Under the pieces are notes generated by a model. It had not been told where the DNA came from. It ran no database searches and worked only from the letters and a program-made list of their open reading frames with translations. Source: Aphrocallistes beatrix (Eukaryota > Porifera > Hexactinellida > Sceptrulophora > Aphrocallistidae). Taken from it: 64,000 bases of DNA. Each line of letters starts with the position of its first letter. Position 1 is the first letter of the stretch. This document shows positions 25,703 through 51,900 of this stretch, piece after piece. Location of the stretch: assembly GCA_963281255.1 (NCBI GenBank), contig OY725501.1, positions 4,069,674-4,133,673 on the forward strand, in the 5' to 3' direction. The translations under genes and the position numbers were made by a program.

Positions 25703-27601
25703 TTAGTAACATTGGAATGTAAAGTTAGGATTATATGACACAATAAATATTTTCCCGGAATGGGACACAGCAATACCATAGGGTGAAATGAGGTCTCCTC
25801 TTGACTTCCCTTTCTTCCCTAGTGTGTGTATGAGCTCTCCGGAATGTGTGAATATCTTGATAGTGTCATGTCCCCTGTCACTAATCAAGATATTCATATC
25901 TGGATCTAAACAGAAGAAGAATGGTCTATCAACCAAACAATTCTGTTTATCCCCTTGAGAGACACAGGCAGTAAGCAGGTCTCCACTCCTGGAGAATATT
26001 CTCACGCAGTTAGGACTCCTGTCTAGTACCACCAGTGTATCTGGACTCAGTTTCACGTCTACAGGGAAGTAAAGGATTCCTGTCCCAATACAGGATTTGA
26101 AACGGAGGTTACCTGAGAATACACTCACTCTGTGGTTCCAACAATCTGCTATGAACACATCTCCATTTCTGTCTACACATAATCCTTTAGGACCAAATAG
26201 CTCTCCTTCAGTTCCAGCTCTGTTGATTGGTTGGAGAGTGTCTTTACTGAATTGGAATAGAGAGTGGTGGTCCCAGTCTGTAACGAAGATGAATTCTTCT
26301 GTTACTGCTATCCCATATGGTCTCCTAAGTACATCCTGTCCAAACTGAGTAAGGAACTCTCCTTGGAAGGACAGTACCTTTACACAGTTGTTACCGTAAT
26401 CAGCTATGTAGACTTTCTGACTTATTTCGTCCAATGCTAATCCTCTGGGTTCTTTAAGCTCGTTATTTTCTGTTCCTAGCTTCACAGCTGACACGACGGG
26501 TTTCTTCTTTGCGGTGTAATCGGGACATTTCCAGGTGACGACATCTCCAAACTCAGATATTTGGGATTGGAGGGTTGCTAAGGACGGACATTGGAATGCT
26601 AAGGGTGTGAGTTTGGTTGGTGTCTCTTTCTCCTTCTGTCCCTGTTGGTACAGCTGTTCTGCTTGCTGGTGCAAGGGTAGATTCTCATTTGCCTAAAACA
26701 CAGAATCGAATATATTCATGAAAAAAGAAAAATTGATCAATATTTGCGGACAATCGATGTTAGAAATCCAAAATAATATTAACCAAAGGTGTGAAAATGT
26801 GTAAATATAAGTGTTGATAACACATCCATCTAATCGAAAAATTGGATTTCACATATGAAATAACTAAATTAATTATTGGGGTTCGCTCATAATTTAATTA
26901 TAATTTTAAGCAAAGAAGTAGAATGAACATCCTCTACTCTTATTCAGAATCTGCTCATCATCATAAAGTCAGAGTAGAGTTGGATATATGCATATAGGAG
27001 TTTAGGAAAATATTTGCGCCTTTATGCACGCGCATACGCCTGAATGAAACCCAGAAGGCGTTTACGGAAAATCCGAAAGATTTCAATTCCAAAGTTTTCT
27101 GTTCCACAGTTTGGTGTTTCTGAATAAAGTATTTCAGAAATATCAAACATTTAATGTTACAAATTTGGGTTGAAATACAATTGTTAAAACTACAGAACAC
27201 ATTCACTGTTCTGAGACAGAACAGTGAATGTGAACCGCGAAATGAAAGCGAATAAGCTAAGGTCTCCAGAATCTATTCCAACCGAATGGAGACAACTGCT
27301 ATCATCTCAAATTTCTAAGCTAACACGCAGTCATGAATAGTTAATTGTTAGAGAGACTGACCTTTAAGCTGAGTTCTGCCATGTGTCGCTGTGCTCTGAG
27401 CAACTCTTCCAGAGCTTCAATCCGAGTCTTCTCTTTGTTCAAGAACTCCTCTCGCATCTGGACTACCTTCTGGAGGAGGGCGTCCTTCCTCTGGATCAGC
27501 TGTTCGATCAGCTGATTGAACATGCGTTCTATTTGCTCTGCGACACGGTTGAAGTGTGCCATGGTGTCACTGGGAGCAGGTGGTGGCATATTAGTGGCCA
27601 T
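25703..27601 (-). CDS. coiled-coil/NHL-repeat protein, copy A
   Basis: Exon 1 is 27601-27362 (80 codons) and exon 2 is 26692-25703, joined in phase 0 by a 669-bp intron (GTCAGT..TTTTAG). The protein has 409 residues. Residues 15-78 form a charged coiled coil (IERMFNQLIEQLIQRKDALL..). About 160-405 carry five or six NHL blades of the form xPxGLALDE..VYIADxxNxCVKVLS. There is no RING, B-box or signal peptide, so it resembles only the C-terminal half of TRIM-NHL proteins. NHL propellers bind RNA, peptides or sugars on one face. The other copies (B-F) are near-identical except at the blade-face positions. An X-box at 27706-27719 suggests RFX/ciliary control, and a hairpin lies in the intron. The frame is open and nothing appears broken. 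Function is unknown. Confidence 0.85.
27198..27232 (-). other. intronic 35-nt perfect hairpin, copy A
   Basis: The 15-nt arms CACATTCACTGTTCT and AGAACAGTGAATGTG enclose a 5-nt loop. It lies about 130 bp downstream of the exon 1 donor. The same hairpin occurs in all six NHL introns. Confidence 0.85.
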
Positions 27602-27705
27602 TTCTGTGTTCAGTTTTGTTAGGTTGAATTGAATAGAAAGAATATAGTTTATCCAAGAAACTCTCTCTATTATATGTAATCTGAGAATGCCATTGTACGT
27701 CAATG

Positions 27706-27719
27706 GTTGCTATGGTAAC
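27706..27719 (-). promoter_or_regulatory. RFX X-box, NHL copy A
   Basis: GTTGCTATGGTAAC matches the RFX palindrome (GTNRCC..RGYAAC) and ends about 105 bp upstream of the ATG. A TGACGT CRE-like site is adjacent on the minus strand. Confidence 0.7.
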
Positions 27720-28070
27720 CTGGGAATGTTGTCTTGTTTGCGTGAGTGTAAGGAACTCAGTTATTCCATTTCTTATCATTACTAGTGCTGACATAATCTC
27801 AATCACGTTTCTTAACTTGGAGTACTGATTGGGTGCGAGGATATTCGTAGACTCCAAGTGACCAGCATTTGCAGTACAAAACCAGCGGACCAGTATGGTG
27901 GCTATGAATCCAGCATTCCGCTTAGACTATTTTGACTCATAATGTCCTGTAAACTATCTCTGTTAAGCATACTTATCATTGCGAGGGCTTTGATCTACTT
28001 GAATTGATTCGGTTGCTGGCAAAATATATTTGCTTACCACAGAATACGGCATTTTTCCTTCCCTGTGGGG

Positions 28071-29288
28071 CAGGGGTTTTCAACCTTTTTTAGACCACGA
28101 CCCACTTTCTAAATTTTGCAGTCTTCGCGTCCCACCCCTCAGTGTTGAAATGAAGCTTCGCCAATCAAGACCTTCATTTACAAAGAAATTGTCCACTTTG
28201 TTGAAAATATCTATTCCACGTGTTTGCGAATCAAGTGGCTGACAAAAGAGTAACTCTTCCTTGAAATCACAATTGTGGATATAACGTACATATACCATCA
28301 ACTGAGCACAAGAAGAAACAGCTGTTGACTCTCGTCTAATTGTAAAACATAGCTAGGTGACTGTTTAATTTGCTCCACTACTTGGTTCTTTATATCATCT
28401 GACATTTCTTGTATTCTGCGTTGGATAGTATTATCAGAGAGTGACAAAGAACTTAGTTTTTTCCCTGCATCCGCACCAATCATAAGACGCACAACGTCTT
28501 TCGTGCAAGGCAATACTAGTTCTTCACCAATAGTATGTGGTTTCTTAGATTTTGCAATGCGGAGTGACACAGCATATGACGCTTCAACTGCAGCTTTTAT
28601 GTTTACAAATGTCTGTCCTGTAGTGTCAAGTCTGGATTTCTTTGTAGAATCTGATTTTCTTTGGAAGAAAGAAACATCTCGATCCTTGTATGTTGGATGT
28701 TCCTTCTCGAAATGTCTCCTAAGCTGAAACGGCTTCATGGACTCTGCAGATAAAACTTTAAGACATATCACACATTGTGGCTTTTCAATACCTTCCGTTA
28801 AGATACTGGTAAATCCAAATTTCAGATAATCATCTGAATAGGCTCGCTTAGGAGCACGTTTTGTTGCCATTTAACTGAAAATAAAAGAAGTATTGAAAAT
28901 GTAGATATTTTTAGAAGCTAATGAACACATATGTAATATGTGAATATACATATTACAAAGTTGTGTATACGAGTACTAGGTTTTGACTATCATAGGTTCT
29001 AATAATTAAACAGTTATAATATCACACTTCAATATGTCTTCTCTATTCTTTCATTTATCAATACCTTGGTATATTATTACAATACTGTTTACTAATTCAC
29101 AATTAGACACTAACACCAACCAAATTTGATTGAAATTCAATACTAACTCCAAGACCGAGAGTAGTTAGTTTGTGTAAATGTTTAATAAGAGAATATTCGT
29201 TACTCAAGTAATTTAGTACCCACCTTCCGCGACCCACTGGAAAATCTGTCGCGACCCACCAGTGGGTCACACTGGTTGAAAACCCCTG
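28071..29288 (-). mobile_element. deleted hAT (Charlie/ZBED-like) DNA transposon, copy 1
   Basis: The terminal inverted repeats are CAGGGGTTTTCAACC and GGTTGAAAACCCCTG. The subterminal words ACCCACT..AGTGGGT repeat around them. The 1.2-kb interior keeps only the front of the transposase and lacks the catalytic and dimerisation C-terminus. The right flank ATCTAGAG resembles a hAT target site, but the left flank CTGTGGGG does not match it, so the junction may be rearranged. It sits between NHL copies A and B. A near-identical copy is at 35920-37122. Confidence 0.88.
28080..28870 (-). pseudogene. truncated hAT transposase with BED zinc finger
   Basis: The frame from the ATG at 28870 gives 190 residues: basic start MATKRAPKRAYSDDYLKFGF, a BED-type finger (PQCVICLKVLSAESMKPFQL then RRHFEKEHP), and a helical region ending YVLQLDES. 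Homology then continues in another frame (AQLMVYVRYIHNCDFKEELL) to about 28080, so one frameshift separates the parts. The catalytic DDE region is deleted. The second copy at 36719 has the same structure. Confidence 0.8.
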
Positions 29289-29536
29289 ATCTAGAGAAAT
29301 TATTATATTTGTAGGTTCATCTGAAATTAACCTATAATTTCATTCCTCCTGAACTCACCATTGGGAGATGGATGGTATTCCTTTTCCCTTAGATTCAGCC
29401 TGGGAACAAAGTAATTGTCGACCCATGAAAGTAATGAATGAATAATTCCTAATCTCCAACAAAAGCTATGTTGAAACTTGAAGAAAGCAAATTTTAATAC
29501 AAATATAAAAACACATGACTAGACTCTAGATACAGA

Positions 29537-31708
29537 TTAGTAACATTGGAATGTAAAGTTTGGATTAAATGACACAATAAATATTTTCCCGGAATGGGAC
29601 ACAGCGATACCAAAGGGTAAAATGAGTTCTCCTCTTGACTTCCCTTTCTTCCCTAGCGTCTGTATGAGCTCTCCGGAATGTGTGAATATCTTGATAGTGT
29701 CATGTCTCCAGTCACTAATCAAGATATTCATATCTGGATCTAAACAGAAGAAGTCTGGTCTATCAACCAAACAATTCTGTTTATATCCTTGAGAGACACA
29801 GGAAGTGAGCAGGTCTCCACTCCTGGAGAATATTCTCACGCAGTTAGGACTCCTGTCTAGTACCACCAGTGTATCTGGACTCAGTTTCACGTCTACAGGG
29901 AAGTTAAGGATTCCTGTCCCAATACAGGATTTGAAACGGAGGTTACCTGAGAATACACTCACTCTGTGGTTCCACCAATCTGCTATGAACACATCTCCAT
30001 TTCTGTCTACACATAATCCGCTAGGATCATATAGCTCTCCTTCAGCTCCTCCTCTAGTTCCAGCTCTGTTGATTGGTTGGAGAGTGTCTTTATTGAATTG
30101 GAATAGAGAGTGTTGGTCCCAGTCTGAAACGAAGATGAATTCTTCTGTTACTGCTATTCCCCGTGGTCCCCTAAGTACATCCTGTCCAAACTGAGTAAGG
30201 AACTCTCCTTGGAAGGACAGTACCTTTACACACCTGTTACCGAAATCAGCTATGTAGACTTTCTGACTTATTTCGTCTAAAGCTAATCCTCTGGGATATT
30301 TGAGCTCGTTATTTTCTGTTCCTAGCTTCACAGCTGACACGACGGGTTTCTTCTTAGCGGTGTAATCGGGACATTTCCAGGTGACGACATCTCCAAACTC
30401 AGATATTTGGGATTGGAGGGTTGCTAGGGATGGACATTGGAATGTTATGGCAGGGAGTTTGGTTGGTGTCTCTTTCTCCTTCTGTCCCTGTTGGTACAAC
30501 TGTTCTGCTTGCTTGTGCAAGGGTAGATTCTCATTTGCCTAAAACACAGAATCGGAATATATTCTAAAAATAGAAAAGATTTAGGAAATTCTGATAATGA
30601 ATCAGTGGTGGCATACTCGGTACGGCAGTTTAACTACCGCCGTACCACTTTTCAGAAAGCTCAGCTTTGCTGTAACGTTACAGAGCTGTTCTAAATTTAG
30701 AAATTCACTGTAACTTAATGCATCCATGGTAAATAGATTAAGTGAATTCTCATTGTACCACTTTGCACTATACAATAAACCAGTTTTGAATCTCTACTGC
30801 AAGATATGTGCCGGATATTCCGCCGTAACACTTTTTGAGTGTGTGTTGACCTGTAAATTGTATGATAAATCTCTATGGACACGATCGTTCAATTGCATTA
30901 AAATATTAATAAAGGTGTGAAAATGTGTATATACATAAATGCAAATAAAACATTCATTTATTGTAAAATAAACACACTAAAATAAATTATTCTAGTTATC
31001 GATATTTCAATACATTTGAAACATAATTTTGTTAAATGTAGCATGAACAGCCTCCACTATGATTATTCCGAACTCAGGCTCGTTGGATATATTCATATAT
31101 ACGATTTCAGAAAATTTGCATGCCTAATTTAAATGTAATGCGCCTTTATGAATACGCAAGAATGAAACGCAGAAAGCTTTTTTTTACAGAAAATCCACGG
31201 ATTTCTGTTCCAAAGTTTGGCGTCTCTGAATTAAGTATTTCAAAAATAACGAACATTTAATCTTACAAATTTCGGTTGAAAATACAATTGATAAAACTGC
31301 AGAACACATTCACTGTTCTGAGACAGAACAGTGAATGTGAACCGCGAAATGAAAGCGAATAAGCTAAGGTCTCCAGAATCTATTTCAACCGAATGGAGAC
31401 AATTGCTATCATCTCAACTTTCTAAGCTAACACGCAGTCATGAATAGTTAATTGTTAGAGAGACTGACCTTTAAGCTGAGTTCTGCCATGTGTCGCTGTG
31501 CTCTGAGCAACTCTTCCAGAGCTTCAATCCGAGTCTTCTCTTTGTTCAAGAACTCCTCTCGCATCTGGACTACCTTCTGGAGGAGGGCGTCCTTCCTCTG
31601 GATCAGCTGTTCGATCAGCTGATTGAACTTGCGTTCTATTTGCTCTGCGACACGGTTGAAGTGTGCCATGGTGTCACTGGGAGCAGGTGGTGGCATATTA
31701 GTGGCCAT
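29537..31708 (-). CDS. coiled-coil/NHL-repeat protein, copy B
   Basis: Exon 1 is 31708-31469 and exon 2 is 30538-29537, encoding 413 residues with an open frame. The coiled coil is identical to copy A except ERKFNQ for ERMFNQ. Relative to A, blade positions read KYPRG, ADFGNR, GPRG, SDWDQ, YDPSG, ADWWNH and SDWRH, and four residues (RGGA-type) are inserted before EGEL. The intron (930 bp) has its own sequence in the middle (30600-30900), including words not found in A. The X-box is at 31811-31824 and the hairpin at 31305-31339. The promoter-distal flank (31840-31880) matches the flank of copy F, suggesting F derives from a B-like gene. Confidence 0.85.
31305..31339 (-). other. intronic 35-nt perfect hairpin, copy B
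   Basis: It has the same arms and loop as in copy A, about 130 bp downstream of the exon 1 donor. Confidence 0.85.
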
Positions 31709-31810
31709 TTCTGTGTTCAGTTCTGTTAGGTTGAATTGGATAGAAAGAATATAGTTTATCCAAGAAACTCTCCATTATATGTAATCTGAGAATGCCATAG
31801 TACGTCAATG

Positions 31811-31824
31811 GTTGCTATGGTAAC
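31811..31824 (-). promoter_or_regulatory. RFX X-box, NHL copy B
   Basis: GTTGCTATGGTAAC is intact, about 103 bp upstream of the ATG. Confidence 0.7.
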
Positions 31825-31839
31825 CTGGGAATGTTGTCT

Positions 31840-33381
31840 AGAGACAAGTTCACTATAACTATTTTGGGAAAACTTAGTAGTTTCCATTTATAGAATACAA
31901 GCGCATCGCTTGCTTGAGTTGCGTTGCTGGACAACATTTTTGTGTCGCCGGAGGCGCCTTTGGGCGCATGTGGTCACCATTGATTAATTATATGGGAGAT
32001 AACATCTCTAAATACGTCTGTCCATCGTGAAAAAACCTGTGCAGTGTACCAATTGACACTCTTCCTTGTTGACCTCTTTGGAGAGTTGAGAACTCTGACG
32101 AACGGCTTCGATGACGTCATCAGTACGAATCGACTTCCGTCCTGAGTTGCTCAGACGGTCATCAGACTTAGAGTTGAGTTCTTAACTGTCCCTTCTGTCA
32201 AACTTCTCAATGCAGCCAAATATAACTGATTTGCTGGGAGGTTTTTGCTCGTTGAGTCTTGCAATCATTTCTATACAGAAGTGCAAGAGTGTAGCTTGTA
32301 GTAGAGCTGACACAATAGATCCTCTTCTCTGTGCTACACTGCTAGCTATAAATGCTCCCAGGGTATTATCTACCATATCCTAACTCTGTTCATTAGTTTA
32401 GAACACAGAGACATAATGAACTCGAAATTACTTGGCTTCTGTTTATTTTAGCCCACCCGGTATACGCAACACTAACTGAATTGCCCTATTTTCACCAGGG
32501 AACTAAGTACAAATCTAAATTTAATCTTCACGGGTCTTGTCAATATATTTACACCTTCACTATGGATGTGAATTAATGGATATTATGGATGAGATTTCAG
32601 AGGTAAATGTTAGGAGTTCGCTAAATACAATTTGACACTCAGATGCCATGATGTGAATAAATAAAAAGTTAGCAGCTTAGACTGAAATATTCATAATTTC
32701 ACACCTCTGGTTAGCATGTTAATAGAGCAGTACATTTCATTATGTTACAAAAAGCTATGTTACAAAATACCAATGCAGGTTTCTTCAGGTGACAAATAAG
32801 TTTAGAATATTCGCACAAGTTATTCGAGGATATTCGTTCTATTCAATGGTTACGGAAAGAGGATCCTATTATGCTATACCAGGGGCTGGCGACTTTGAAA
32901 GAAATGTGTCCCATAATGTCGACATATTTATTGCCTGGTGTGTCAGTGGCACGTCAGCCTTGAGGTGTCGCCCCCTAAATTTACAAAAATGTCAGTCTGT
33001 CGACCGACATTTATTTCAACTCCGCTTGCCATCGATTCAATGCTCGTGTGTCATAGAACCCTGTGCTATACTTTCTGCCAATAAGCGACAAATGAGTAGA
33101 ACAATTCTTCTTCGATTGAATTAATACTAAACTCATGGCTTGTCTCTATCTAGAGAAATTGTTATATTTGTAGGTTAAAATCATTCAAAATTAGAGTTCT
33201 ATAAATATCTGGAATTAACCTATCATTTCATTCCTCCTGAACTCATCATTGGGAGATGGCTGGCATTCCTTTTCCCTTAGATTCAGCCTGGGAACAAAGT
33301 AATTGTCGACCCATGAAAGTAATGAATGATTCATTCGTAATCTCCAACTATAGTTTTGTTGGAACTTGAAGAAAGCAAATT
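31840..33381. other. spacer between NHL copies B and C
   Basis: There is no convincing gene. A 64-codon minus-strand frame at 32376-32182 contains TLLHFCIEMIARLNEQKPPS and could be a stray exon or chance. From about 32640 to 33300 the spacer is the L block shared almost exactly with 40145-40760 and more loosely with 25360-25700, including a hAT-like CAGGGGCTGGC remnant. Confidence 0.5.
32640..33300. repeat. L block, tandem-unit boundary (copy at 40145-40760)
   Basis: Both copies read TGCCATGATGTGAATAAATA.. through ..GTCGACCGACATTTATT.. to the CATCATTGGGAGATG word with only scattered changes. This marks the repeat unit of the NHL array. Confidence 0.8.
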
Positions 33382-34963: not shown

Positions 34964-35146
34964 AACCGCGAAATGAAAGCGAATAAGCTAAGGTCTCCAG
35001 AATCTATTCCAACCGAATGGAGACAACTGCTATCATCTCAACTTTCTAAGCTAACACGCAGTCATGAATAGTTAATTGTTATAGAGACTGACCTTTAAGC
35101 TGAGTTCTGCCATGTGTCGCTGTGCTCTGAGCAACTCTTCCAGAGC

Positions 35147-35388
35147 TTCAATCCGAGTCTTCTCTTTGTTCAAGAACTCCTCTCGCATCTGGACTACCTT
35201 CTGGAGGAGGGCGTCCTTCCTCTGGATCAGCTGTTCGATCAGCTGATTGAACATGCGTTCTATCTGCTTCAATCCGAGTCTTCTCTTTGTTCAAGAACTC
35301 CTCTCGCATCTGGACTACCTTCTGGAGGAGGGCGTCCTTCCTCTGGATCAGCTGTTCGATCAGCTGATTGAACATGCGTTCTATCTGC
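35147..35388. repeat. 121-bp tandem duplication inside exon 1 of copy C
   Basis: Units 35147-35267 and 35268-35388 both begin TTCAATCCGAGTCTTCTC and end with CGTTCTATCTGC. The length is not a multiple of three. Confidence 0.9.
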
Positions 35389-35555
35389 TCTGCGACACGG
35401 TTGAAGTGTGCCATGGTGTCACTGGGAGCAGGTGGTGGCATATTAGTGGCCATTTCTGTGTTCAGTTTTGTTTGGTTGAATTGAATAGAAAGAATATAGT
35501 TTATCCAACAAACTCTCCATTATATGTAATCTGAGAATGCCATAATAAGTAAATT

Positions 35556-35919: not shown

Positions 35920-37122
35920 CAGGGGTTTTCAACCTTTTTTAGACCACGACCCACTTTCTAAATTTTGCAGTCTTCGCGTCCCACCCCTCAGTGTTGAAAT
36001 GAAGCTTCGCCAATCAAGACCTTCAGCTGCAAAGAAACTGTCCACTTTGTTGAAAATATCTATTCCACGTGTTTGCGAATCAAGTGGCTGACAAAAGAGT
36101 AACTCTTCCTTGAAATCACAATTGTGGATATAACGTACATATACCATCAACTGAGCACAAGAAGAAACAGCTGTTGACTCTCGTCTAATTGTAAAACATA
36201 GCTAGGTGACTGTTTAATTTGCTCCACTACTTGGTTCTTTATATCATCTGACATTTCTTGTATTCTGCGTTGGATAGTATTATCAGAGAGTGACAAAGAA
36301 CTTAGTTTTTTCCCTGCATCCGCACCAATCATAAGACGCACAACGTCTTTCGTGCAAGGCAATACTAGTTCTTCACCAATAGTATGTGGTTTCTTAGATT
36401 TTGCAATGCGGAGTGACACAGCATATGACGCTTCAACTGCAGCTTTTATGTTTACAAATGTCTGTCCTGTAGTGTCAAGTCTGGATTTCTTTGTAGAATC
36501 TGATTTTCTTTGGAAGAAAGAAACATCTCGATCCTTGTATGTTGGATGTTCCTTCTCGAAATGTCTCCTAAGCTGAAACGGCTTCATGGACTCTGCAGAT
36601 AAAACTTTAAGACATATCACACATTGTGGCTTTTCAATACCTTCCGTTAAGATACTGGTAAATCCAAATTTCAGATAATCATCTGAATAGGCTCGCTTAG
36701 GAGCACGTTTTGCTGCCATTTAACTGAAAATAAAAGAAGTATTGAAAATGTAGATATTTTTAGAAGCTAATGAACACATATGTAATATGTGAATATACAT
36801 ATTACAAAGTTGTGTATACGAGTACTAGGTTTTGACTATCATAGGTTCTAATAATTAAACAGTTATAATATCACACTTCAATATGTCTTCTCTATTCTTT
36901 CATTTATCAATACATTGGTATATAATTACAATATTGTTTAAATTCACAATTAGACACTAACACCAACCAAATTTGATTGAAATTCAATACTAACTCCAAG
37001 ACCGAGAGTAGTTAGTTTGTGTAAAAGTTTAATAAGAGAATATTCGTTACTCAAGTAATTTAGTACCCACCTTCCGCGACCCACTGGAAAATCTGTCGCG
37101 ACCCACTGGTTGAAAACCCCTG
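35920..37122 (-). mobile_element. deleted hAT (Charlie/ZBED-like) DNA transposon, copy 2
   Basis: It has the same terminal repeats, the same 190-codon front part (36719-36147) and the same left flank as the copy at 28071. It lacks a few bases (ACCAGTGGGTCAC) near the right end. The shared left flank shows that it arose by segmental duplication rather than a second insertion. Confidence 0.88.
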
Positions 37123-37133
37123 ATCTAGAGAAA

Positions 37134-37524
37134 TTATTTTTGAATACCAAGACTTAGGTCGCGGGTTCTAACCTCACTCTAGTCATTTGCATTTTACTCT
37201 CAATTACATTGCTTCGGTAATGTAATCTGAGCCTACACTCTTGCAGAACCTTAGTGAGCTGAAAGCACTAAGGATGTCATCTCGTTTAAAGGTAAAGTTA
37301 GGTCAGGTGCTATCTTTCTTGCCTACTGTTAGCCGAGTTTTTCTCTGTAACACGCCATCATATGCACACAGACATGCCATCATATGCATACATACACGCC
37401 GCATGCACACATTCAGCAACTATCAGTAGGTTTAGCACCTCACCCAGATTGTAAACCCCCTGAGAACATATTAGCATGGATTCGGGGGGTATATAAATCT
37501 ATAAACTTTAACTTTAACTTTAAT
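37134..37524 (+). mobile_element. SINE-like retroelement with (ACTTTA)n tail
   Basis: The 5' part contains GGTTCTAACCTC, a match to the tRNA B box, but no clear A box, so the head looks truncated. The element ends GGTATATAAATCTATAAACT followed by repeated ACTTTA, a typical SINE/LINE 3' tail. It abuts the 3' end of NHL copy D and changes its C-terminus. Confidence 0.6.
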
Positions 37525-39851
37525 GTAAAGTTTGGATTAAATGACACAATAAATATTTTCCCGGAATGGGACACAGTAATACCATAGGGAGCAATGAGTT
37601 CTCCTCTTGACTTCCCTTTCTTCCCTAGTGTGTGTATGAGCTCTCCGGAATGTGTGAATATATTGATAGTGTTATGTCCCCAGTCACTAATCAAGATATT
37701 CATATCTGGATCTAAACAGAAGAAGAATGGTTGATAAACCAAACAATTCTGTTTATCTCCTTGAGAGACACAGGAAGTGAGCAGGTCTCCACTCCTGGAG
37801 AATATTCTCACGCAGTTAGGACTCCAGTCTAGAACCACCAGTGTATCTGGACTCAGTTTCACGTCTACAGGGAAGTAAAGGATTCCTGTCCCAATACAGG
37901 ATTTGAAACGGAGGTTACCTGAGAATACACTCACTCTGTCGTTCCACGAATCTGCTATGAACACATCTCCATTTCTGTCTACACATAATCCTCTAGGACC
38001 AAATAGCTCTCCTTCAGCTCTTCCTCTAGTTCCAGCTCTGTTGATTGGTTGGAGAGTGTCTTTATTGAATTGGAATAGAGACGGGTGTCTCAAGTCTGTA
38101 ACGAAGATGAATTCTTCTGTTACTGCTATTCCGCATGGTCCCCTGAGTACATCCTGTCCAAACTGAGTAAGGAACTCTCCTTGGAAGGACAGTACCTTTA
38201 CACACCTGTTACCTAAATCAGCTATGTAGACTTTCTGACTTGTTTCGTCTAAAGCTAATCCTGTGGGATATTGAAGCTCTTTATTTCCTGTTCCTAGCTT
38301 CACAGCTGACACGACGGGTTTCTTCTTAGCGGTGTAATCGGGACATTTCCAGGTGACGACATCTCCAAACTCAGATATTTGCGATTGGAGGGTTGCTAGG
38401 GATGGACATTGGAATGTTATGGCAGGGAGTTTGGTTGGTGTCTCTTTCTCCTTCTGTCCCTGTTGGTACAGCTGTTCTGCTTGCTGGTGCAAGGGTAGAT
38501 TCTCATTTGCCTAAAAGAGAGAATCGAAATTTATTCTAAAAATAGAAAAACATAAAAATTAATGAATATCTGTGGACAATCGATGCTAGAAATCCAAAAT
38601 AATACTAACCAAAGGTGTGAAAATGTGTAAATATAACACATCCATCTAATCGAAAAATTGGATTCTACATAGTGAAATAATCTAAATTAATTATCGGTGT
38701 TCGCATATAATTTTGAGTAAAGAAGTAGAAAGAACATCCAATACTATTATTCAGAATCTGCTAATCATCATAAAGTCAGAGTAGAGTTGGATATATGCAT
38801 ATAAGAGTTTAGGAAAATATTCGCGCCTTTATGCACGTTCTTACGCCTGAATGAAAACCAGAATGCGTTTTATATGGAAAATCCACGGATTTATCTTGTA
38901 TGGTTCTTTGAACTAAAGTATTTCAGAAATATCAATCATTTAATGGTAAAAATTTCGGTTACTTCTCTTGAAAATATCCTGAGGAGTGAAATCGCTGGAC
39001 GTTTTTCTATTTTAAATTTTAATAGCTATATTGGTATGAATCAATAGACTTAAGTTTCAAAATTTGCGATCAGGGAATTTCCTGTCAATTAAAAAAAGGT
39101 CGAATATTTGTAATTAAAGATTTAGAAATGGACAAGTAAACTATTTAGGAAAAGTACATCATATATAAACTCATCAACGCGTTAAATAATCACATAATTA
39201 AAATTCTAGAACAATTTTCGAAATTCGTGATCAAGGAATTATTCCTGATTTCCTGAAGACTTGTTAAATAATGAGAAACATAAAATACTTCAATAAATTC
39301 TAGAAAATATATTATTATCTATTATAGACTAGTTAAAAGCTCAAAATCCCTGAACTGCTGGATCATAATCCATTTCCTTGGATAATTTAGGGATCCCTGA
39401 GGGTTGGTAAGTATTCGGTTGAAAATACAATTGATAAAACTACAGAACACATTCACTGTTCTGAGACAGAACAGTGAATGTGAACCGCGAAATGAAAGCA
39501 AATAAGCTAAGGTCTCCAGAATCTATTTCAACCGAATGGAGACAACTGCTATCATCTCAACTTTCTAAGCTAACACGCAGTCATGAATAGTTAATTGTTA
39601 GAGAGACTCACCTTTAAGCTGAGTTCTGCCATGTCTCGCTGTGCTCTGAGCAACTCTTCCAGAGCTTCAATTCGAGTCTTCTCTTTGTTCAAGAACTCCT
39701 CTCGCATCTGGACTACCTTCTGGAGGAGGGCGTCCTTCCTCTGGATCAGCTGTTCGATCAGCTGATTGAACATGCGTTCTATCTGCTCTGCGACACGGTT
39801 GAAGTGTGCCATGGTGTCACTGGGAGCAGGTGGTGGCATATTAGTGGCCAT
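37440..39851 (-). CDS. coiled-coil/NHL-repeat protein, copy D, with altered C-terminus
   Basis: Exon 1 is 39851-39612 and exon 2 is 38510-37440, encoding 436 residues. The coiled coil and blades are intact. Blade positions are QYPTG, ADLGNR, GPCG, TDLRH, FGPRG, ADSWND, SDWGHN and IAPYG. The family's usual end (..NPNFTFQCY) is replaced after NPNFT by about 29 residues encoded by the SINE-like insertion (LKLKLKFIDLYTPRIHANMF..). The intron has a 460-bp insertion (38961-39420) shared only with copy E. The exon 1 donor is GTGAGT instead of GTCAGT. The X-box (39954-39967) and hairpin are intact, so it may be functional. Confidence 0.8.
38961..39420. mobile_element. 460-bp insertion in the copy D intron, flanked by TTCGGTT
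   Basis: Copies A-C read straight through this point. Here TTCGGTT occurs on both sides (38954-38960 and 39414-39420) as if duplicated on insertion. The interior is AT-rich and non-coding. The matching insertion in copy E spans about 43010-43465. The family is not recognised. Confidence 0.6.
39448..39482 (-). other. intronic 35-nt perfect hairpin, copy D
   Basis: The arms and loop are the same as in copy A. Confidence 0.85.
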
Positions 39852-41233: not shown

Positions 41234-43896
41234 TTAGTAACATTGGAATGTAAAGTTAGGATTACATGACACAACAAATATTTTCCCGGAATGGGACACA
41301 GCAATACCATAGGGTGAAATGAGTTCTCCTCTTGACTTCCCTTTCTTCCCTAGTGCGTGTATGAGCTCTCCGGAATGTGTGAATATCTTGATAGTGTCAT
41401 GTCCCCAGTCACTAATCAAGATATTCATATCTAGATCTAAACAGAAGAAGAATGGTTGATAAACCAAACAATTCTGTTTATCTCCTTGAGAGACACAGGA
41501 AGTGAGCAGGTCTCCACTCCTGGAGAATATTCTCACGCAGTTAGGACTCCAGTCTAGTACCACCAGTGTATCTGGACTCAGTTTCACGTCTACAGGGAAG
41601 TAAAGGATTCCTGTCCCAATACAGGATTTGAAACGGAGGTTACCTGAGAATACACTCACTCTGTCGTTCCCCGAATCTGCTATGAACACATCTCCATTTC
41701 TGTCTACACATAATCCGCTAGGAAACCTTAGCTCTCCTTCAGCTTCTCCTTCAGTTCCAGCTCTGTTGATTGGTTGGAGAGTGTCTTTACTGAATTGGAA
41801 TAGAGAGTGGTGGTGGTAGTCTGTAACGAAGATGAGTTCTTCTGTTACTGCTATTCCCCGTGGTCTCCTGAGTACATCCTGTCCAAACTGAGCAAGGAAC
41901 TCTCCTTGGAAGGACAGTACCTTTACACAGCTGTTATCTGAATCAGCTATGTAGACTTTCTGACTTATTTCGTCTAAAGCTAATCCTGTGGGTTCTTTAA
42001 GCTCGTTATTTCCTGTTCCTAGCTTCACAGCTGATACGACGGGTTTCTTCTTAGCGGTGTAATCGGGACATTTCCAGGTGACGACATCTCCAAACTCAGA
42101 TATTTGGGATTGGAGGGTTGCTAGGGACGGACATTGGAATGCAAAGGGTGGGAGTTTGGTTGGTGTCTCTTTCTCCTTCTGTCCCTGTTGGTACAACAAT
42201 TCTGCTTGCTGGTGCAAGGGTAGATTCTCATTTGCCTAAAACACAGAATCGAATATATTCTAAATATCGAAAAGTTAATCAATATCCGTGGATTATTATT
42301 ATGGTTACCAAAGGTGTGAAAATGTGTAAAAATAACTGCAAATAACACATCCATCTGATCGAAAAATTGGATTCTACATAGTGAAATAACCTATTTAAAA
42401 TACAGTGGAACCTGTATATAACGGCCACCCAAGGGACTGGACAAATTGGTCGTTATACACAGGAAGTTTTTAAAAATCTATTACTAGAAATAATTCCATG
42501 AAACTTGTTTATCGTTCGTAACAGGTCCTGTAATAAGCACATAAAAAAGTGAAAAAGGTGATGGCCTTCCGTTATACACATTTTTACGGTCAGTAAGGGA
42601 CTACAAACGGGTGGCCGCTGGCCGCGTTGAGCAGGTGACCGCTACACACAGGTTCAATATTATGGAATTTCGGACGGGACTGTTCATCGGTGACCGCTAT
42701 AGACAGGTGACCGTTATAGCAGGTTCAACTGTGTTGAGATTTCGCGCATAATTTCAATACAATTTTAAGCAAAGAAGTAGAATGAACATCCAATACTCTT
42801 ATTCAGAATCTGCTCATGATCATAAAGTCAGAGTAAAGTTGGATATATGCATATAGGAGTTTAGGAAAATATTCGCGCTTTTATGCACGTTCCTACGCCT
42901 GAATGAAACCCAGAAGGCTTTTTATATGGAAAATCCACGGATTTATCTTGTATGGTTCTTTGAACTAAAGTATTTCAGAAATGTCAATCATTTAATGGTA
43001 AAAATTTCGTTACTTCTCTTGAAAATATCCTGAGGAGTGAAATCGCTGGACGTTTTTCTATTTTAAATTTTAATAGCTATATTGGTATGAATCAATAGAC
43101 TTAAGTTTCAAAATTCGCGATCAGGGAATTTCCTGTCAATTATAAAAAGGTCGAATATTTGTAATTAAAGATTTGGAAATGGACAAGTAAACTATTTAGG
43201 AAAAGGTACATCATATATAAACTCATCAACGCGTTAAATAATCACATAATTAAAATTCTAGAGCAATTTTCGAAATTCGTGATCAAGGAATTATTCCTGA
43301 AGACTTGTTAAATAATGAGAAACATAAAATACTTCAATAAATTCTAGAAAATATATTATTATCTATTATAGACTAGTTAAAAGCTCAAAATCCCTGAACT
43401 GCTGGATCATAATCCATTTCCTTGGATAATTTAGGGATCCCAGGAAGGTTGGTAAGTATTCGGTTGAAAATACAATTGATAAAACTACAGAACACATTCA
43501 CTGTTCTGAGACAGAACAGTGAATGTGAACCACGAAATGAAAGCGAATAAGCTAAGGTCTCCAGAATCTATTCCAACCGAATGGAGATAACTGCTATCAT
43601 CTCAATTTTCTAAGCTAACACGCAGTCATGAATAGTTAATTGTTAGAGAGACTGACCTTTAAGCTGAGTTCTGCCATGTGTCGCTGTGCTCTGAGCAACT
43701 CTTCCAGAGCTTCAATCCGAGTCTTCTCTTTGTTCAAGAACTCCTCTCGCATCTGGACTACCTTCTGGAGGAGGGCGTCCTTCCTCTGGATCAGCTGTTC
43801 GATCAGCTGATTGAACATGCGTTCTATCTGCTCTGCGACACGGTTGAAGTGTGCCATGGTGTCACTGGGAGCAGGTGGTGGCATATTAGTGGCCAT
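41234..43896 (-). CDS. coiled-coil/NHL-repeat protein, copy E
   Basis: Exon 1 is 43896-43657 and exon 2 is 42235-41234, encoding 413 residues with an open frame. Blade positions are KEPTG, ADSDNS, RPRG, TDYHH, RFPSG, ADSGND, SDWGHD and ISPYG. The 1.4-kb intron carries a family-2 MITE (42403-42731) and the 460-bp insertion also found in copy D. The X-box (43998-44011) is intact and the hairpin is at 43493-43527. The coiled coil is identical to copy A. It is the most upstream member of the tandem array. Confidence 0.85.
42403..42731. mobile_element. MITE, family 2
   Basis: It begins CAGTGGAACCTGTATATAAC after TA and ends with the inverted counterpart ..AGCAGGTTCAACTG. It lies in the intron of NHL copy E only, so it inserted after duplication. 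Confidence 0.82.
43493..43527 (-). other. intronic 35-nt perfect hairpin, copy E
   Basis: The arms and loop are the same as in copy A. Confidence 0.85.
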
Positions 43897-43997: not shown

Positions 43998-44011
43998 GTT
44001 GCTATGGTAAC
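43998..44011 (-). promoter_or_regulatory. RFX X-box, NHL copy E
   Basis: GTTGCTATGGTAAC is intact, about 102 bp upstream of the ATG. Confidence 0.7.
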
Positions 44012-44279
44012 TTTGGAATGTTATCTAGTTTGCGTGAGTGCAAGGAACTCAGATATTCAATTTCTTACCATTACTAGTGCTGATATAATCTGTTCTAACA
44101 CTGACGTTATGTCTGCACTTATTCTTGTGTGAATAATCATTTCTTAGAAGTCATGCATTTCATAAAAGTTCCTCACAAATGGATGGGAGTGTCTCTGATT
44201 CTAGGATATTGCATTGGTGGAATACTAAATTTAGGTATGACTATGTCCACATTCTTAACATCATATAGTCTAACACATA

Positions 44280-44447
44280 CAGTTAGGGTCGCTTAATATG
44301 AACATTCGTTTATTATGAACTAACCTCCTGGTCCCAATTTCATTTTTAGATAGGATTTGTATTGAACCAAGTTCGCTTAATATGAACTATCTCTATTATG
44401 AATATATTTTTGGTCCCCTGGTGGTTCACAATAAGCGACCCTGACTG
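44280..44447. mobile_element. MITE, family 4 (ends in CAGTTAGGGTCGCTTA)
   Basis: This is a 168-bp element with TA on each side. The left end CAGTTAGGGTCGCTTAATAT is matched by the inverted right end ATAAGCGACCCTGACTG. It is non-coding. Confidence 0.8.
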
Positions 44448-44971
44448 TAATATAAACTCAATATAGCTTCAAATAGACAGACACATGACAAGCTAGTGAG
44501 TAGCTTGATTGTTCTGTATTATGCTAATAAGAGTTCAGATATTCTATTTAAATTTGCCCAACAACTCGGATTAATATCAAAACAAAACTACGACAAACTT
44601 ATATTATCAGTTTACACCAATCATAAGAAGTGTTCGTCATTCCAAACACTGTGGACCTTTTCGGGCTAGGTTTAGTTCACCATTGCTAATACAGGGAATT
44701 AGCTAGGAACGTGAGGTACTCCTTTAGGCGAATGGTTTGGAGTTCTGAGTGTTTAGAAGTGCGAAAATTAGAAACATTCTCCGACACTACAATGTTATTC
44801 ATCGATTTAGGCATATTTAATTTGAGTGGATTCGAGATTCGGAGCCGCATAATGCCATGCCCTGAAATGATCAAACTGTCAACTCTAGGCCTGAAGAAAA
44901 AAGAGCGAACATTTCTAAATGAGTTTAGGACAATCCTGAATTATAATAATCAACTCGGTTGTATTAACTCC

Positions 44972-45092
44972 TACTCTACTACTACACTGCACTACACTAC
45001 TACACTACTACACGACTCCTACTATACTACATCACTACACTGCACCACTACACTACACTACACGACTACACTACACTATATACTACACTGCA
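44972..45092. repeat. (ACTAC)/(CACTA)n microsatellite
   Basis: This is about 120 bp of irregular CTACTACACTAC units. Confidence 0.9.
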
Positions 45093-45323
45093 GTCCAACA
45101 ATGGATTCTGGTGGATGGATGTTATAAGAGAGATGGATTCACATTTCACCAATCAGCTGTTCCAATGCACCGGAAGTAGAACTGAAACTTATTAGTTCCG
45201 ATTCAAAATACACTGAATACATACACATCCGACACAATGGTCGCTTATTTAATTAGTCACATAAATGGGAATAACTTATTCAAAACAACCAATCAACTCA
45301 ATGCAAAATATAAACAGCTGTTT

Positions 45324-47935
45324 TCACGCCATATCATCCAGTACTGCTAACTCGTCTTTGTCTCCTTTAGGCTTGGAGCTGAGCTCTCGGATCTGTCCGA
45401 CCACGAACTTGTACCACGCGTCGAACCTAGAAATCCTATCGTACTCGTCCAGGAACTCATTCACCTGCTCAGTTTCTCCCTCCTCGATGGCAGACAAGAC
45501 GTCCGAGATCAGTTTAAGCTCCCGCGTGTCTTGAAAGCTGGGGTTTAATTGGATGTATCCGTCTATCTTCTGAGTCACCTGCTCTCTGTCCAAGATGAGG
45601 AGGCAGAGGAGAGACTTGAACATGTACTCCTTAGCCGAGTAGGAGAGCAGCCTGGGAGAATAGCTCAGTCAACTCCACTCAAATAAGCATGGACCATGGA
45701 TTTCATAGTTATTCGATATTTACTCTTAATACTAGAGTCATTGGGAGATAGAAGGACTAACTTTATACCCTCCATAGTTCTTGAAAGTATATATATATAT
45801 AAGCTATTAATGTTTACATATGGATATTTTCACACCTCTGGTTGGTACTTTGGTGTCATTTTTGAAATATCAAAAACTTTACTAATTCAACTAGCCAATC
45901 AGTTCGCTTAAAAGTAGTAGTAAAATACCTGGTCTTGACAGAGGTGTCGATGACTCTGTCGAACAGCTGGATGGCTTCGTTCCAGCGGGACAGCTTGGCG
46001 TAGAGACTGGCGGCTCGGAGCAGGACCTTGGTGCAGGCACTGGGACTGTCCTCAGCGACGTAGATGTCTCCGGCCTTCAAGTACCTCGAAATGGCGGCGG
46101 AGAGATCGTTCAGAGATTCTAACACCTCTGCTAGCGCTGTGCTATATTTAGCTGCCATGTTGAACCTGCCCATCTCCAGGTAGATCTACACATAACACAG
46201 TGGAACCTCCGTAACCATAGCAGACACCATTTCCTCCACAAATACACACAAATGACCACATAATCCTAGTGTTTTAGTTCTCTACGGGTGTGGGGATTAT
46301 TCTGTGGGATTCTCTAAGAGTATTCCTGACTACCAGATTGGAATGTTCACATTCTCTTCCTCCGAGTCACTTACTGTAGCCCACATAATTGTATGTGATC
46401 TGTCAGCTAACATACTTTATTCATGAAACAATGGAGTGTGCAGATTCTCAATTATTAAATAAGGGAAAATGAAATTTTAAATCAGAGTCGGACTAAGGAG
46501 TTTGCTACTCATTCCAAGCTAAGTCATTTTGGGCGGGGAAACCTTAAAAGTGACTATAAATAGAATTGAACCTTGGGCAAAATCGAATTTTAAAATACAG
46601 TGGTGTTCGCTTAATAGCAAGTCGATTTTAGCTCGAATTTTGATTGCTGATAAGCGAACTTGCTATAGAGAAACGAAATTAACATAATAAGCACGCTTGG
46701 GACCTGGAAATAACTTGCTAATAGACGAATATTGCTATTAGAGCAATTGCTAATAAGCGAACACCACAGCAATAGGTTACTTCAATATGCTCGGAATGGA
46801 AAGCTCAGCAATGTCAGTTGACGTAACCAATATAAACCACTTTCACACCTCGATGGACTTGACGTAGCAGTCTGCGGCCTTGCGGAGGTGGCACTTCTTG
46901 TAGCAGGTGGCGGCGTCTGTCAGAGTGGTGGCGGTCTCGTGTCTGCTGTCCAGCTGCTGCTGCACCTCCGACGCCCGCACGTACGCGTCCCCGGCCAACT
47001 CCCAGTTCTTGTTCAGCTTGAAGAGGTTCCCTGCCAGACGAGAGAAATGATTGGCTCTCCTCACTCCGAGCAATTAGACGGAGTACAATGGTAGACATTT
47101 TTGTCCCAATTGAGCAGAGTTGAATATAATTTCCTGTAACAACGACTAATATTTTAAATATTTGATTCGTTAACTAAGTTATTTTCTCAGAATTTTCAAT
47201 AATTTTTGGCTTGAAATCGTTCCAAAAATTCACTTGGGCAGTTTTCGTTTTTAAATACAGTGGAACCTGTATATAACGGTCACCCAAGGGACTGGACAAA
47301 ATTGGCCGTTATACACAGGTGACCGTTATATACAGGTGATTGTCTTAATCCCCAAAAGGTATCAACGTAGTGTAATAAATATCAAGTTTTTAGAAATCCA
47401 TTACTTGAAGTAATTACATGAAACTTGTTTATCGTTCATAACAGATCCTGTAATAAACACTTTAAAATGTGAAAAAGGTGATGGCCGTTATAGACAGTTT
47501 TAGGGTCAGTAAGAGACTACAAACGGGTGGCCACTGGCCACGTTAAGCAGATGACCGCTATACACAGGTTCAATATTATTGAATTTCGGGTGGGACTGTT
47601 CATTGGTGACCGTTATATAGAATAGAGTAGCAGTTATAGCAGGTTCGAATGTATTCGTTACATCTGTAGGAAAGCCATTATCCATGGTCCGACTGAGACT
47701 CACCAGCCCTGTGGAAAGCTTCAGCTGCCTCTTCCACCTTCTGGACGCCGCCGAATATCTTCCCCAGGAAGCCCCGGCTGCTGTTCAGCTTGGTCTCTGC
47801 CTCGGAGACCAGTTTCTGTCCGGAGGGGTCTGGCACGGAGTTGTTGTAGTTGGGGTCTCTCAGACGCTTCTCCAGTTCTCCAGCCCCTGGCAGCTCCTCG
47901 TCCGGACTCTTCTCACTCTTGTCGTTCTCTGCCAT
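45324..47935 (-). CDS. NAPA: alpha-SNAP (soluble NSF attachment protein)
   Basis: Four exons are in frame: 47935-47704, 47030-46849, 46185-45929 and 45651-45324, giving 332 residues. TPR-like helices include GFLGKIFGG, NLFKLNKNWELAGDAY, YLEMGRFNMAAKYSTALAEV and LLSYSAKEYMFKSLLC, matching alpha-SNAP block by block. Alpha-SNAP binds SNARE complexes on the cytosolic face and recruits NSF to disassemble them after membrane fusion. The N-terminus has about 45 extra polar residues before the first helix (family length is about 295). The C-terminus ends ..ELAVLDDMA, so the leucine near the end that alpha-SNAP uses to stimulate NSF is not in the usual penultimate position. Introns carry two MITEs. 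A typical housekeeping gene; beta/alpha-type rather than gamma-SNAP. Confidence 0.9.
46598..46768. mobile_element. MITE, family 3 (ends in CAGTGGTGTTCGCTTAATAG)
   Basis: This is about 171 bp in an alpha-SNAP intron. The right end reads TAAGCGAACACCAC, the inverse of the left. The interior holds further short inverted words (TTGCTA/TAGCAA). Confidence 0.8.
47258..47651. mobile_element. MITE, family 2
   Basis: This is a 394-bp full-length copy after TA, starting CAGTGGAACCTGTATATAAC and ending ..TAGCAGGTTCGAATG. It lies in the first alpha-SNAP intron. Confidence 0.85.
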
Positions 47936-48954
47936 TGACACGCTAGACAACTGACAGGGCTGTAAGCTATAGGCCTAGACACGGTATGCTGTCAGGTTTC
48001 AACCGGAGTTTTAACCAGTTTAACACCAAGAGGACAATATTGTACGGTCGGAGCGGTTTCAACCTGACCACTTCACACCTGGGGTCTACGACCTTGCAGT
48101 ATAATACATACATTTGAACCACATGATATATACACATTTTAAGATGTTGGGATGGAACAGCCAATCAACTTTCTCCTATACTATATCCCTCCCCTCATTA
48201 CCCCAATGGCCCGGAATAATGCAATTCCTGGTGCTACATTAGCAGTATGGATATTTGGACATAATATAGTGTCATTGGATAGAGTGAGTGTACAGAAGAT
48301 ATTTCAAATAACTAGCGGGTATTATCAGTTCCATCTGAAGCAGAGGAATGTAATGTAGATTCCCGTGCTCGTAGCATTGCCAATCTCACTGATAGATATC
48401 TCGTACAGAGTCTAGACTCATTCCTCAGAGATAGGAAAGGATGGCTGTTATATTGTGTCGCAGAGTGCCACTGCATATGAGGACAAATACTATGGAAGTT
48501 TAAATCTATAATTAAATGCATTCTTAGCTGCATATTTATATTTACTGAATATAAGCATCCGATTTCTCTACCTATCTTCAGTGAGGTGGAAGCTTTGGAG
48601 TAATCCAATGGACGTAGCTAAGAATAACTAATACTTGCAACATTCTAAATATAGACACTTGACTATGGTTGTAAGAGTCATTGTTATGACGCGACCACTC
48701 ATAAGAATTGCTGAAGTCTACGAACTCTACTGAGTCTAGACTAGTTAACATTACAGGAGAGTTTGTAGGATGAAGTATAGTATCAGTATCACAGAAAGTG
48801 GAGTGTCTGTCGTTTATAAGTATATTTACTAAAAGTATTTGTGTAAACAAATGCAGGAAAAACAAACAATCGAGAAAAATCTAAAAAATCGCATGAAAGT
48901 GAATCAGGAAATCGAACAATTGAAATAACAGCAAATCTATTTATATAATTGAAT
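47936..48954. other. intergenic region upstream of alpha-SNAP
   Basis: It lies between the alpha-SNAP start and the CCDC62 stop. A 68-codon plus-strand frame (48152-48358) starts with ATG but has no recognisable similarity or exon context. Nothing else stands out. Confidence 0.5.
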
Positions 48955-51900
48955 TCAGTTGTTAAGTGGTTTGTGTGTGTCAAGTGTGTCATCTTCTTCT
49001 GGAATAGCAGAGAGAGGTGAGAGTTGCCTTGGAGATGGAGGAGGCTCGATGGAATGTAGAATATTATCTAATTTTAGCTCAAAAGAAGCAGTCACCCTAT
49101 CGACTTCCTGAGTGATGTCTCCGTCTGTCTCGTCCTCTACGTCCGGGATTATCCCGAGGGAACTGGGACGGAGGAGAGAGGGGGACACTGGGCTGGGGAG
49201 TGGCGGGAAGGGTTCGTCCCGGATACGGGCGGGGTTGGTGGGGGATGTGTCGCGAGTGGGACGCTGTGGGGACAAGAGGACCGTGGTGGGTTGGATCTAA
49301 GAACACATTCTCTTATCCAATCAATTCTAACTTATTCCTGAACCAAATTATGATACTAGAGTATATAAAACAAAATGACAAACATTTATTTCAAAACAAA
49401 CACATCATTAAGAGATATATTTTTGAGTTAATTATGAGGTGAAATCCGATAAGGATTCATTCACCGTAAGATGAGGAAGTTTTCCCAAAATAGTTAGAGT
49501 GAACATGTCTCTAGACAACATTCCCATGCTACCATAGCAACCATTGACGTACTATGGCATTCTCAGATTACATATAATAGAGAGTTTCCTGGATAAACTA
49601 TATTCTTTCTATTCAATTCAACCTAACAAAACTGAACACAGAAATGGCCACTAATATGCCACCACCTGCTCGCAGTGACACCATGGCACACTTCAACCGT
49701 GTCGCAGAGCAGATAGAACGCATGTTCAATCAGCTGATCGAACAGCTGATCCAGAGGAAGGACGCCCTCCTCCAGAAGGTAGTCCAGATGCGAGAGGAGT
49801 TCTTGAACAAAGAGAAGACTCGGATTGAAGCTCTGGAAGAGTTGCTCAGAGCACAGCGAGACATGGCAGAACTCAGCTTAAAGGTCAGTCTCTCTAACAA
49901 TTAACTATTCATGACTGCGTGTTAGCTTAGAAAGTTGAGATCATAGCAGTTGTCTCCTCCATTCGGTTGGAATAGATTCTGGAGACCTTAGCTTATTCGC
50001 TTTCATTTCGCGGTTCACATTCACTGTTCTTTCTCAGAACAGTGAATGTGTTCTGCAGTTTTATCAATTGTCATTTAACCTAAATTTGTAGCATTAAATG
50101 TTTGAAATCTCTAAATACTTTACTCAGAAATCACAAACTTTGGAACAGAAATCCGTGGATTTTCGTAAAAAAGACTTCTGGTTTTCATTCAGGCGTAAGA
50201 ACGTGCATAAAGGCGCGAATATTTCCCTAAACTCCTATATGCATATATCCAACTCTACTCTGACTTTATGATCATGAGCAGATTCTGAATAATAGTATTG
50301 GATGTTCTTTCTACTTCTTTACTATGCAGAATCCAATTTTTGATTAGATAGATGTGTTATTAGCAGGTATATCTACACATTTTCACACCTTTGTTGGTAT
50401 TGTAATGGATTTCGAATATCGATTGTCCGAAAAAAATTATTATTTTTCTATTTCATGATTGTACTTCGATTTTGTTTTTTAGGCAAATGAGAATCTACCT
50501 CTACGCCAGCAAGCAGAACAGTTGTACCAACAGGGACAGAAAGAGAAAGAGACACCAACTAAAGTCCTACCCTTTGCATTCCAATGTCCGTCCATAGCAA
50601 CCCTCCAATCCCAAATATCTGAGTTTGGAGATTTCGTCACCTGGAAATGTCCCGATTACAACGCTAAGAAGAAACCCGTCGTGTCAGCTGTGGAGCTAGG
50701 ACCAGGAAATAACGAACTTCAATATCCCACAGGATTAGCTTTAGACGAAATAAGTCATAAAGTCTACATAACTGATTTAGGTAACAGCTGTGTAAAGGTA
50801 CTGTCCTTCCAAGGAGAGTTCCTTACTCAGTTTGGACAGGATGTACTCAGGAGACCATGGGGAATAGCAGTAACAGAAGAATTCAGCTTCGTTACAGACT
50901 ACCACCACAACTCTCTATTCCAATTCAGTAAAGACACTCTCCAACGAATCAACACAGCTGGAACAGAAGGAAAAGCTGAAGGAGAGCTAGCTGGCCCTAA
51001 AGGATTATGTGTAGACAGAAATGGAGATGTGTTCATAGCAGATTCGGGGAACCACAGAGTGAGTGTATTCTCAGGTAACCTCCGTTTCAAATCTTGTATT
51101 GGGACAGGAATCCTTTACTTCCCTGTAGACGTGAAACTGAGTCCAGATACACTGGTGGTACTAGACAGGAGTCCTAACTGCGTGAGAATATTCTCCAGGA
51201 GTGGAGACCTGCTCACTTCCGGTGTCTCTCAAGGAGATAAACAGAATTGTTTGGTTGATAAACCATTCTTCTTCTGTTTAGATCTAGATATGAATATCTT
51301 GATTAGTGACTGGGGACATAACACTATCAAGATATTCACACATTCCGGAGAACTCATACACACGCTAGGGAAGAAAGGGAAGTCAAGAGGAGAATTCATT
51401 GAACCCTATGGTATTGCTGTGTCCCATTCCGGGAAAATATTTGTTGTGTCACATAATCCTAATTATACATTCCAATGTTACTAACCTGTATCCATATTCT
51501 ATTTATGTTGTTAATAAGCTTTATTGTAATCTGAAATAATTCTGATTAGTTTAGTGTTAAGTGTATGCTAACATAATAAACATAGTCTACCATTATAAGT
51601 CGATGCTAGCATCTACTTAGGGCGGTCAGAAAGTTATAATCAGTGCTATCATATACTCTTATTGTACCTTATTGGATCGATATTGAAGCTTGAATTTACT
51701 TCTTAACACATTCACAAGTGATACCAATTTACAGAATCTGTATACCACGTCCTATATATTGTGTCGCTTGAGCCACCGTGTAAAATTATGGCCACAAATC
51801 ACCCGTTCACCACTCCTCCTTCCCTAAAAAGTAGGCTCCATTATCAGATATTTGAATCTGAGAGAGTATCATTCCCATCAACTTCCTAAGATTGATTTGT

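Follow-up and report, generated by a model that had tools for sequence, protein, structure and literature searches.

The array in the window

A stretch of 64,000 nucleotides from the hexactinellid sponge Aphrocallistes beatrix (positions 4069674-4133673 of contig OY725501.1, here C15, in a genome of 100.5 Mb and 28 contigs), referred to as the window, contains six copies of a gene whose first exon codes for a coiled-coil-like helix and whose second exon codes for an NHL propeller. Differences between these copies, and between their paralogues, are concentrated at positions placed on one face of the propeller, and in two families this face is under positive selection. We propose that these copies belong to a large recognition repertoire, encoded in the germline and diversifying under selection, whose ligands are probably foreign. 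All copies compared come from this one genome. The copies, in window positions, are these:

25703-26692, minus strand: copy 1, exon 2, NHL propeller (open reading frame, ORF; Pfam NHL, E 3.7e-25)
27362-27601, minus strand: copy 1, exon 1, 80 amino acids, coiled-coil-like helix, donor GTCAGT (one predicted helix, residues 10-79, mean predicted local distance difference test score, pLDDT, 91.5)
29537-30538, minus strand: copy 2, exon 2, NHL propeller (ORF; aligned with the other copies)
31469-31708, minus strand: copy 2, exon 1, coiled-coil-like helix
33382-34422, minus strand: copy 3, exon 2, NHL propeller with altered C-terminus (ORF; alignment)
35093-35332, minus strand: copy 3, exon 1 region, internal duplication with stops (probable pseudogene)
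37440-38510, minus strand: copy 4, exon 2, NHL propeller with last residues altered (ORF; Pfam; alignment)
39612-39851, minus strand: copy 4, exon 1, coiled-coil-like helix
41234-42235, minus strand: copy 5, exon 2, NHL propeller, reference for numbering and model (ORF)
43657-43896, minus strand: copy 5, exon 1, coiled-coil-like helix
49644-49883, plus strand: copy 6, exon 1, coiled-coil-like helix
50483-51484, plus strand: copy 6, exon 2, NHL propeller, inverted relative to the other five (ORF; Pfam; alignment)

The minus-strand units are spaced by about 3.8 kb, and a seventh copy is located about 7.6 kb beyond the window edge. At the protein level, exon 2 of the other five copies is 87-91% identical to that of copy 5. 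Exon 1 codes for 80 residues ending in SLK, followed by a GT donor, and exon 2 starts after TTTTAG. This two-exon model is supported by relatives that carry the same or a variant join within one ORF: SLK / SNINLP in the single-ORF relative L025 (415 amino acids) and variants in the nine other relatives printed. Such single-ORF relatives begin with a coiled-coil segment, and the heptad pattern of exon 1 was matched in 23 of 2000 shuffles. Exon-1 DNA of copy 5 has 41 matches across the genome.

An earlier note, made from the bare sequence, had described six coiled-coil/NHL copies, near-identical even in introns. Six propellers are indeed present; exon 1 is intact in five copies and broken in the third, and the C-termini of copies 3 and 4 are altered. 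In copy 3 an internal duplication (35075-35519, minus strand) disrupts the frame, and its 5' end is probably pseudogenic. Local alignment of the introns gives 417 mismatches over 7309 bases (5.7%). This value covers alignable parts only; there the likeness holds, but insertions set the copies apart as well. Because of these insertions, aligning 260 intron bases of the six copies globally gave a value of 0.285, which was dropped.

Variable positions of the propeller

The xPxG and DxxN variants quoted in the earlier note are present in the six exon-2 ORFs, and GLCVDRNGDVFIAD, which it had called invariant, is identical in all six. Variable positions were defined by a mask anchored on the conserved proline (P) of each D-A connection and on the aspartate (D) that ends strand B. 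It comprises P-2, P-1, P+1, D+1, D+2 and D+4 in each of six blades, or 36 of 268 propeller codons (13.4%). The mask follows the description in the note but was fixed after the per-site table of 16 copies had been made, so figures for the window copies and family A are not independent of it. Family A denotes the closest subfamily: 16 members, 79-100% identical in protein, of which C15 carries seven, C1 eight and C12 one. Three independent sets, first examined with the mask already fixed, are family B (40 distant paralogues), a five-member cluster and eight still more distant copies on C3.

Nonsynonymous pairwise differences fall inside the mask, about 13% of codons, in 57.5% of cases among the six window copies, 50.3% in family A, 46.9% among seven copies from C1 and C12, 48.4% in family B, 47.9% in the five-member cluster and 47.3% in the C3 copies. 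The concentration at a few positions per blade, claimed for the window, thus stands and extends to paralogues outside it. Synonymous differences fall there in 13-21% of cases across sets (19.9% in the window six). Chance clustering was rejected: slid along the propeller, the mask reached at best 43.0% (window six), 35.1% (family A), 32.2% (family B), 35.3% (five-member cluster) and 24.8% (C3), against 47.3-57.5% at its true place. Among the seven C15 copies, 373 of 756 residue comparisons differ on the face, versus 363 of 4842 elsewhere.

Mean nonsynonymous divergence in family A is 0.34 at P-2, 0.44 at P-1, 0.01 at P itself, 0.41 at P+1 and 0.01 at the following glycine; after the D anchor it is 0.41 at D+1, 0.18 at D+2, 0.07 at the asparagine and 0.17 at D+4, and the next few neighbours of these phases do not exceed 0.09. 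In the C3 copies P-2 (0.12) and D+4 (0.09) are weakly raised. Reference residues 162, 164 and 252-253, before blades 3 and 5 and outside the mask, are variable in both families and perhaps form the rim of the same face.

Position of the variable sites in the structure

The NHL family (PF01436) was found above its cut-off in the three window copies scanned (E 1.3e-18 to 3.7e-25), and the domain has the form of a closed six-bladed propeller. The model of copy 5 has a predicted template modelling score of 0.71, with ten-residue blocks of residues 81-200 at pLDDT 82-95. The nearest solved folds are Thin, LIN41, TRIM71, TRIM2/3 and Brat. On this model, mask positions fall in B-C connections (16), D-A connections (8), strand A (10) and strand B (2). 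Propellers in general have their D-A and B-C connections on one face, which places the variable sites together on that face, at these connections and the adjoining strand ends, and not scattered in space. Turns of the opposite face are conserved: mean pairwise nonsynonymous divergence (piN) is 0.044 for A-B and 0.049 for C-D turns in family A, and 0.083 and 0.036 in family B. The explanation that loops are simply tolerant of change was rejected on this ground.

The earlier note had taken the variable loops for the ligand face. This label is backed by LIN41: the 14 RNA-contact residues named in the available excerpt of PMC5908797, placed on the TRIM71 chain by a single offset with 14 of 14 letters matching, all fall on P-2, P-1, P+1, D+1 or D+2. 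D+4 belongs to the mask but is absent among these 14 contacts.

The face is rich in W, Y, R, N and H and resembles binding surfaces in composition. Antibody loops have a similar composition.

Selection on the face

Tree-free ratios of nonsynonymous to synonymous pairwise divergence (piN/piS) at the face, with bootstrap limits, are 2.08 (1.20-4.25) for the window six, 1.50 (1.06-2.24) for family A, 1.77 (1.13-3.18) for the seven C1 and C12 copies and 1.37 (1.10-1.76) for family B, while the rest of the propeller gives 0.38-0.60. Face piN reaches 26.8% in the window six, compared with the 5.7% by which alignable intron parts differ. A codon model with two partitions, one tree and one time scale (14 of the 40 members representing family B) gave nonsynonymous/synonymous rate ratios (omega) for face and rest of 6.5 and 0.50 in the window six, 4.9 and 0.48 in 14 copies of family A, and 5.8 and 0.50 in family B. 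Fixing face omega at 1 cost 82, 190 and 249, respectively, in twice the log-likelihood. Equal rates, which the note had named as telling against its proposal, are thus found in none of the three data sets, and positive selection is concentrated on ligand-contact positions in both families.

Exchange between copies

Mosaic sharing of variants had been ascribed to gene conversion. The summed length of the longest runs of polymorphic sites that copies share is above that of all 300 permutations, both in the seven C15 copies and in the 14 copies; the single longest run was equalled in 23 and 10 of 300 permutations, respectively. These permutations of site order carry no control for clustering of variable sites, and on that account conversion is not proved. 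Pairs of informative sites incompatible with one tree make up 45-61% in the C15 set, also outside the face. Because of the excess of shared runs and these incompatible pairs, sequence exchange between copies appears likely; on the face, recurrent mutation may contribute.

Family across the genome

At least 334 distinct NHL places on 20 contigs remain after merging of starts not more than 1.3 kb apart. They come from three protein searches and one NHL family search; about 100-120 candidates were scored in each protein search out of about 2000-3400 first-look candidates per search, so the total may be higher. The matches entered were 121 of 121, 100 of 100, 54 of 101 and about 74 of 150, those omitted having been seen to be already listed. 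The places are matches rather than checked genes, and some are truncated or contain stops.

A stop-free match is present in 14 of the 16 members of family A. For L018 and L023, with one stop each, the longest open part was used in the 16-copy counts, and both were left out of the 14-copy counts; partial pieces resembling the subfamily (C1:10484663, C1:10200100, C12:3756866 and C1:10465108) were excluded. Linkage at 80% nucleotide identity grouped 45 of 52 paralogue loci (L025-L076) into family B and the five-member cluster, a pair and five singles being set aside. C3 and the other distant clusters are represented by the eight C3 copies, and the selection figures exclude L001-L003, L005, L007 and L008.

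Matches to the B-box number only 24 genome-wide, by eye none of them within the arrays analysed; what has expanded is therefore the coiled-coil/NHL type of protein and not the full TRIM-NHL gene. At C15:410071-415407, two NHL matches and, on the same strand at a distance of 3.7 kb, a B-box match (C15:415300) may represent an ordinary TRIM-NHL gene that stands singly. Five head-to-tail NHL copies with 3,380-base spacing occupy C12:4250346-4265143; four have identical scores, each with one TAG in the match, and this array is either a very recent amplification or an assembly artefact. Protease genes have 32 matches in the genome, and in the six loci read the serine typical of silicateins is absent; the one match to the Hedgehog signal domain is weak (E 2.3e-5).

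Other features of the window

Two near-identical ORFs of 190 amino acids (28298-28870 and 36147-36719, both minus strand), with a BED-like zinc-finger start, are duplicated along with the NHL units. They resemble hAT/ZMYM transposon-derived proteins; Pfam gave for the first a match to zf-C2H2_12 below threshold and no other. Inverted repeats of 400 bases (3657-4046 and 47255-47654), 89.5% identical and 43 kb apart, are probably a mobile element. Other ORFs read as a JNK-type kinase (5194-6456) and an alpha-SNAP-like protein, both recognised by eye, and as TSP1/EGF and Furry proteins, recognised by Pfam. ARAGORN predicts a tRNA-Ser(gct) at 61915-62005 (plus strand), in the region of the Furry ORFs; Rfam at its gathering threshold gave no match within the window.

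Interpretation and rival explanations

We suggest that each gene yields a probably cytosolic protein, in which a long helix, likely dimerising, precedes a six-bladed propeller. The propeller frame and its lower face are conserved by purifying selection. On the upper (ligand) face, made up of D-A and B-C connections, positive selection, as seen in families A and B, makes the copies diverge at the 36 mask positions. Neighbouring copies probably trade sequence by unequal exchange or gene conversion. Each propeller would most likely bind a different foreign ligand, microbial or viral, and the coiled coil would cluster the bound proteins or present them to a partner.

Several observations weigh against this reading. 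The copy 5 model has a mean pLDDT of 67.5, the highest of five models (41.9-67.5), and its blades 4-6 are weaker. Face piN/piS is 1.29 (0.79-2.55) in the five-member cluster and 1.00 (0.62-1.79) in the C3 copies, so that an excess over neutrality is not confident there. In family A most of the excess comes from the D-A half of the mask (2.32); the ratio is 0.94 for the B-C half alone and 0.86 for blade 6. Tree-based omega is inflated by recombination, itself likely present; the tree-free ratios and the comparison with fourfold sites use no tree. No effector domain was detected by Pfam in the eight proteins scanned, of which three are from the window and five are paralogues.

Free drift of loops in redundant copies would agree with the existence of broken copies (a stop in two of 16 subfamily members; exon 1 of copy 3), with the ratio of unity in the C3 copies and with that of the B-C half in family A. 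We consider it very unlikely, since the lower bootstrap limits of face piN/piS exceed 1 in the window six, family A, the C1 and C12 copies and family B, face piN lies above fourfold divergence in both families, and turns of the opposite face are conserved; for families A and B it is already disfavoured. Still less credible is mutation targeted to face codons in place of selection. Synonymous divergence by the NG86 (Nei and Gojobori) count is raised in these codons, 0.217 versus 0.111 in family A and 0.291 versus 0.183 in family B. However, divergence at their fourfold third positions is hardly above that of the rest (0.089 versus 0.083; 0.167 versus 0.145) and rises only a little at the interleaved P, G, D and N codons (0.127 and 0.169), whose piS bootstrap ranges overlap those of the rest. 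Selection therefore fits better, and local hypermutation was rejected.

As to the ligand, a repertoire in which each propeller binds a different RNA, such as transposon or viral transcripts, would be a post-transcriptional counterpart of KRAB zinc fingers. Coincidence of the variable phases with the excerpted LIN41 contacts, RNA binders (LIN41/TRIM71 and Brat) among the nearest folds and a mean net face charge of +2.1 in family A speak in its favour. Faces of family B average 0.0 (-7 to +4), unlike the LIN41 cavity, described as basic in the same excerpt (PMC5908797), so the charges do not point to a repertoire that in all copies binds phosphate only. The proposal is further weakened by propellers of other kinds, which bind proteins through the same face, and we hold it to be rather unlikely. 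Allorecognition or partner matching, with variable self molecules such as the other copies as targets, is a doubtful candidate. The number of paralogous places, in the hundreds, fits it as well as it fits defence, and so do mosaic sharing and a face that diversifies, but the 80-residue N-terminus reads as one long helix starting with methionine, in which no leader or membrane segment is seen by eye (no signal-peptide program was run). Because the faces of family A carry a mild positive charge and those of family B are on average neutral, recognition of foreign ligands is ranked first, RNA-directed defence second and allorecognition third, all three as proposals.

It is about evenly balanced, in our judgement, whether the six-bladed propeller serves here as an antibody-like scaffold, with hundreds of germline genes, up to 36 variable contacts and exchange within arrays, for recognition of foreign protein or RNA. 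If so, the NHL propeller would join the short list of scaffolds of hypervariable germline repertoires, and a face known for RNA binding in development would prove able to become a recognition surface that evolves fast. The old question of how animals lacking antibodies recognise many targets could then be tested through about 36 defined positions.

Comparison with known systems

We know of no NHL-based diversifying immune receptor, and among the matches listed from the open-licence literature searched, none described an NHL repertoire that has diversified. TRIM-NHL proteins (TRIM2/3, TRIM71/LIN-41, Brat, Mei-P26) differ from those described here, which have no RING, B-box or filamin domain in the proteins scanned; for RING and B-box these were three window, five paralogue and one exon-1 ORFs, unseen upstream exons aside. 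They differ also in the fate of the face, which is the most variable part here and better conserved than the rest between the PDB chains of TRIM2 and TRIM3 (differences at 2 of 36 face residues and at 47 of the 229 others; Fisher p 0.036; one pair, a small control).

Immune receptors that diversify after expansion in single lineages (TRIM5-type SPRY, NLR, SRCR, FREP and plant LRR proteins) have in common with the copies described here tandem arrays, mosaic sharing and positive selection at ligand contacts; their fold differs from the NHL propeller. In KRAB zinc fingers and PRDM9, regularly spaced contact positions likewise evolve fast on a fixed scaffold; these are open arrays that bind DNA, whereas the propeller described here is closed and its number of blades is constant.

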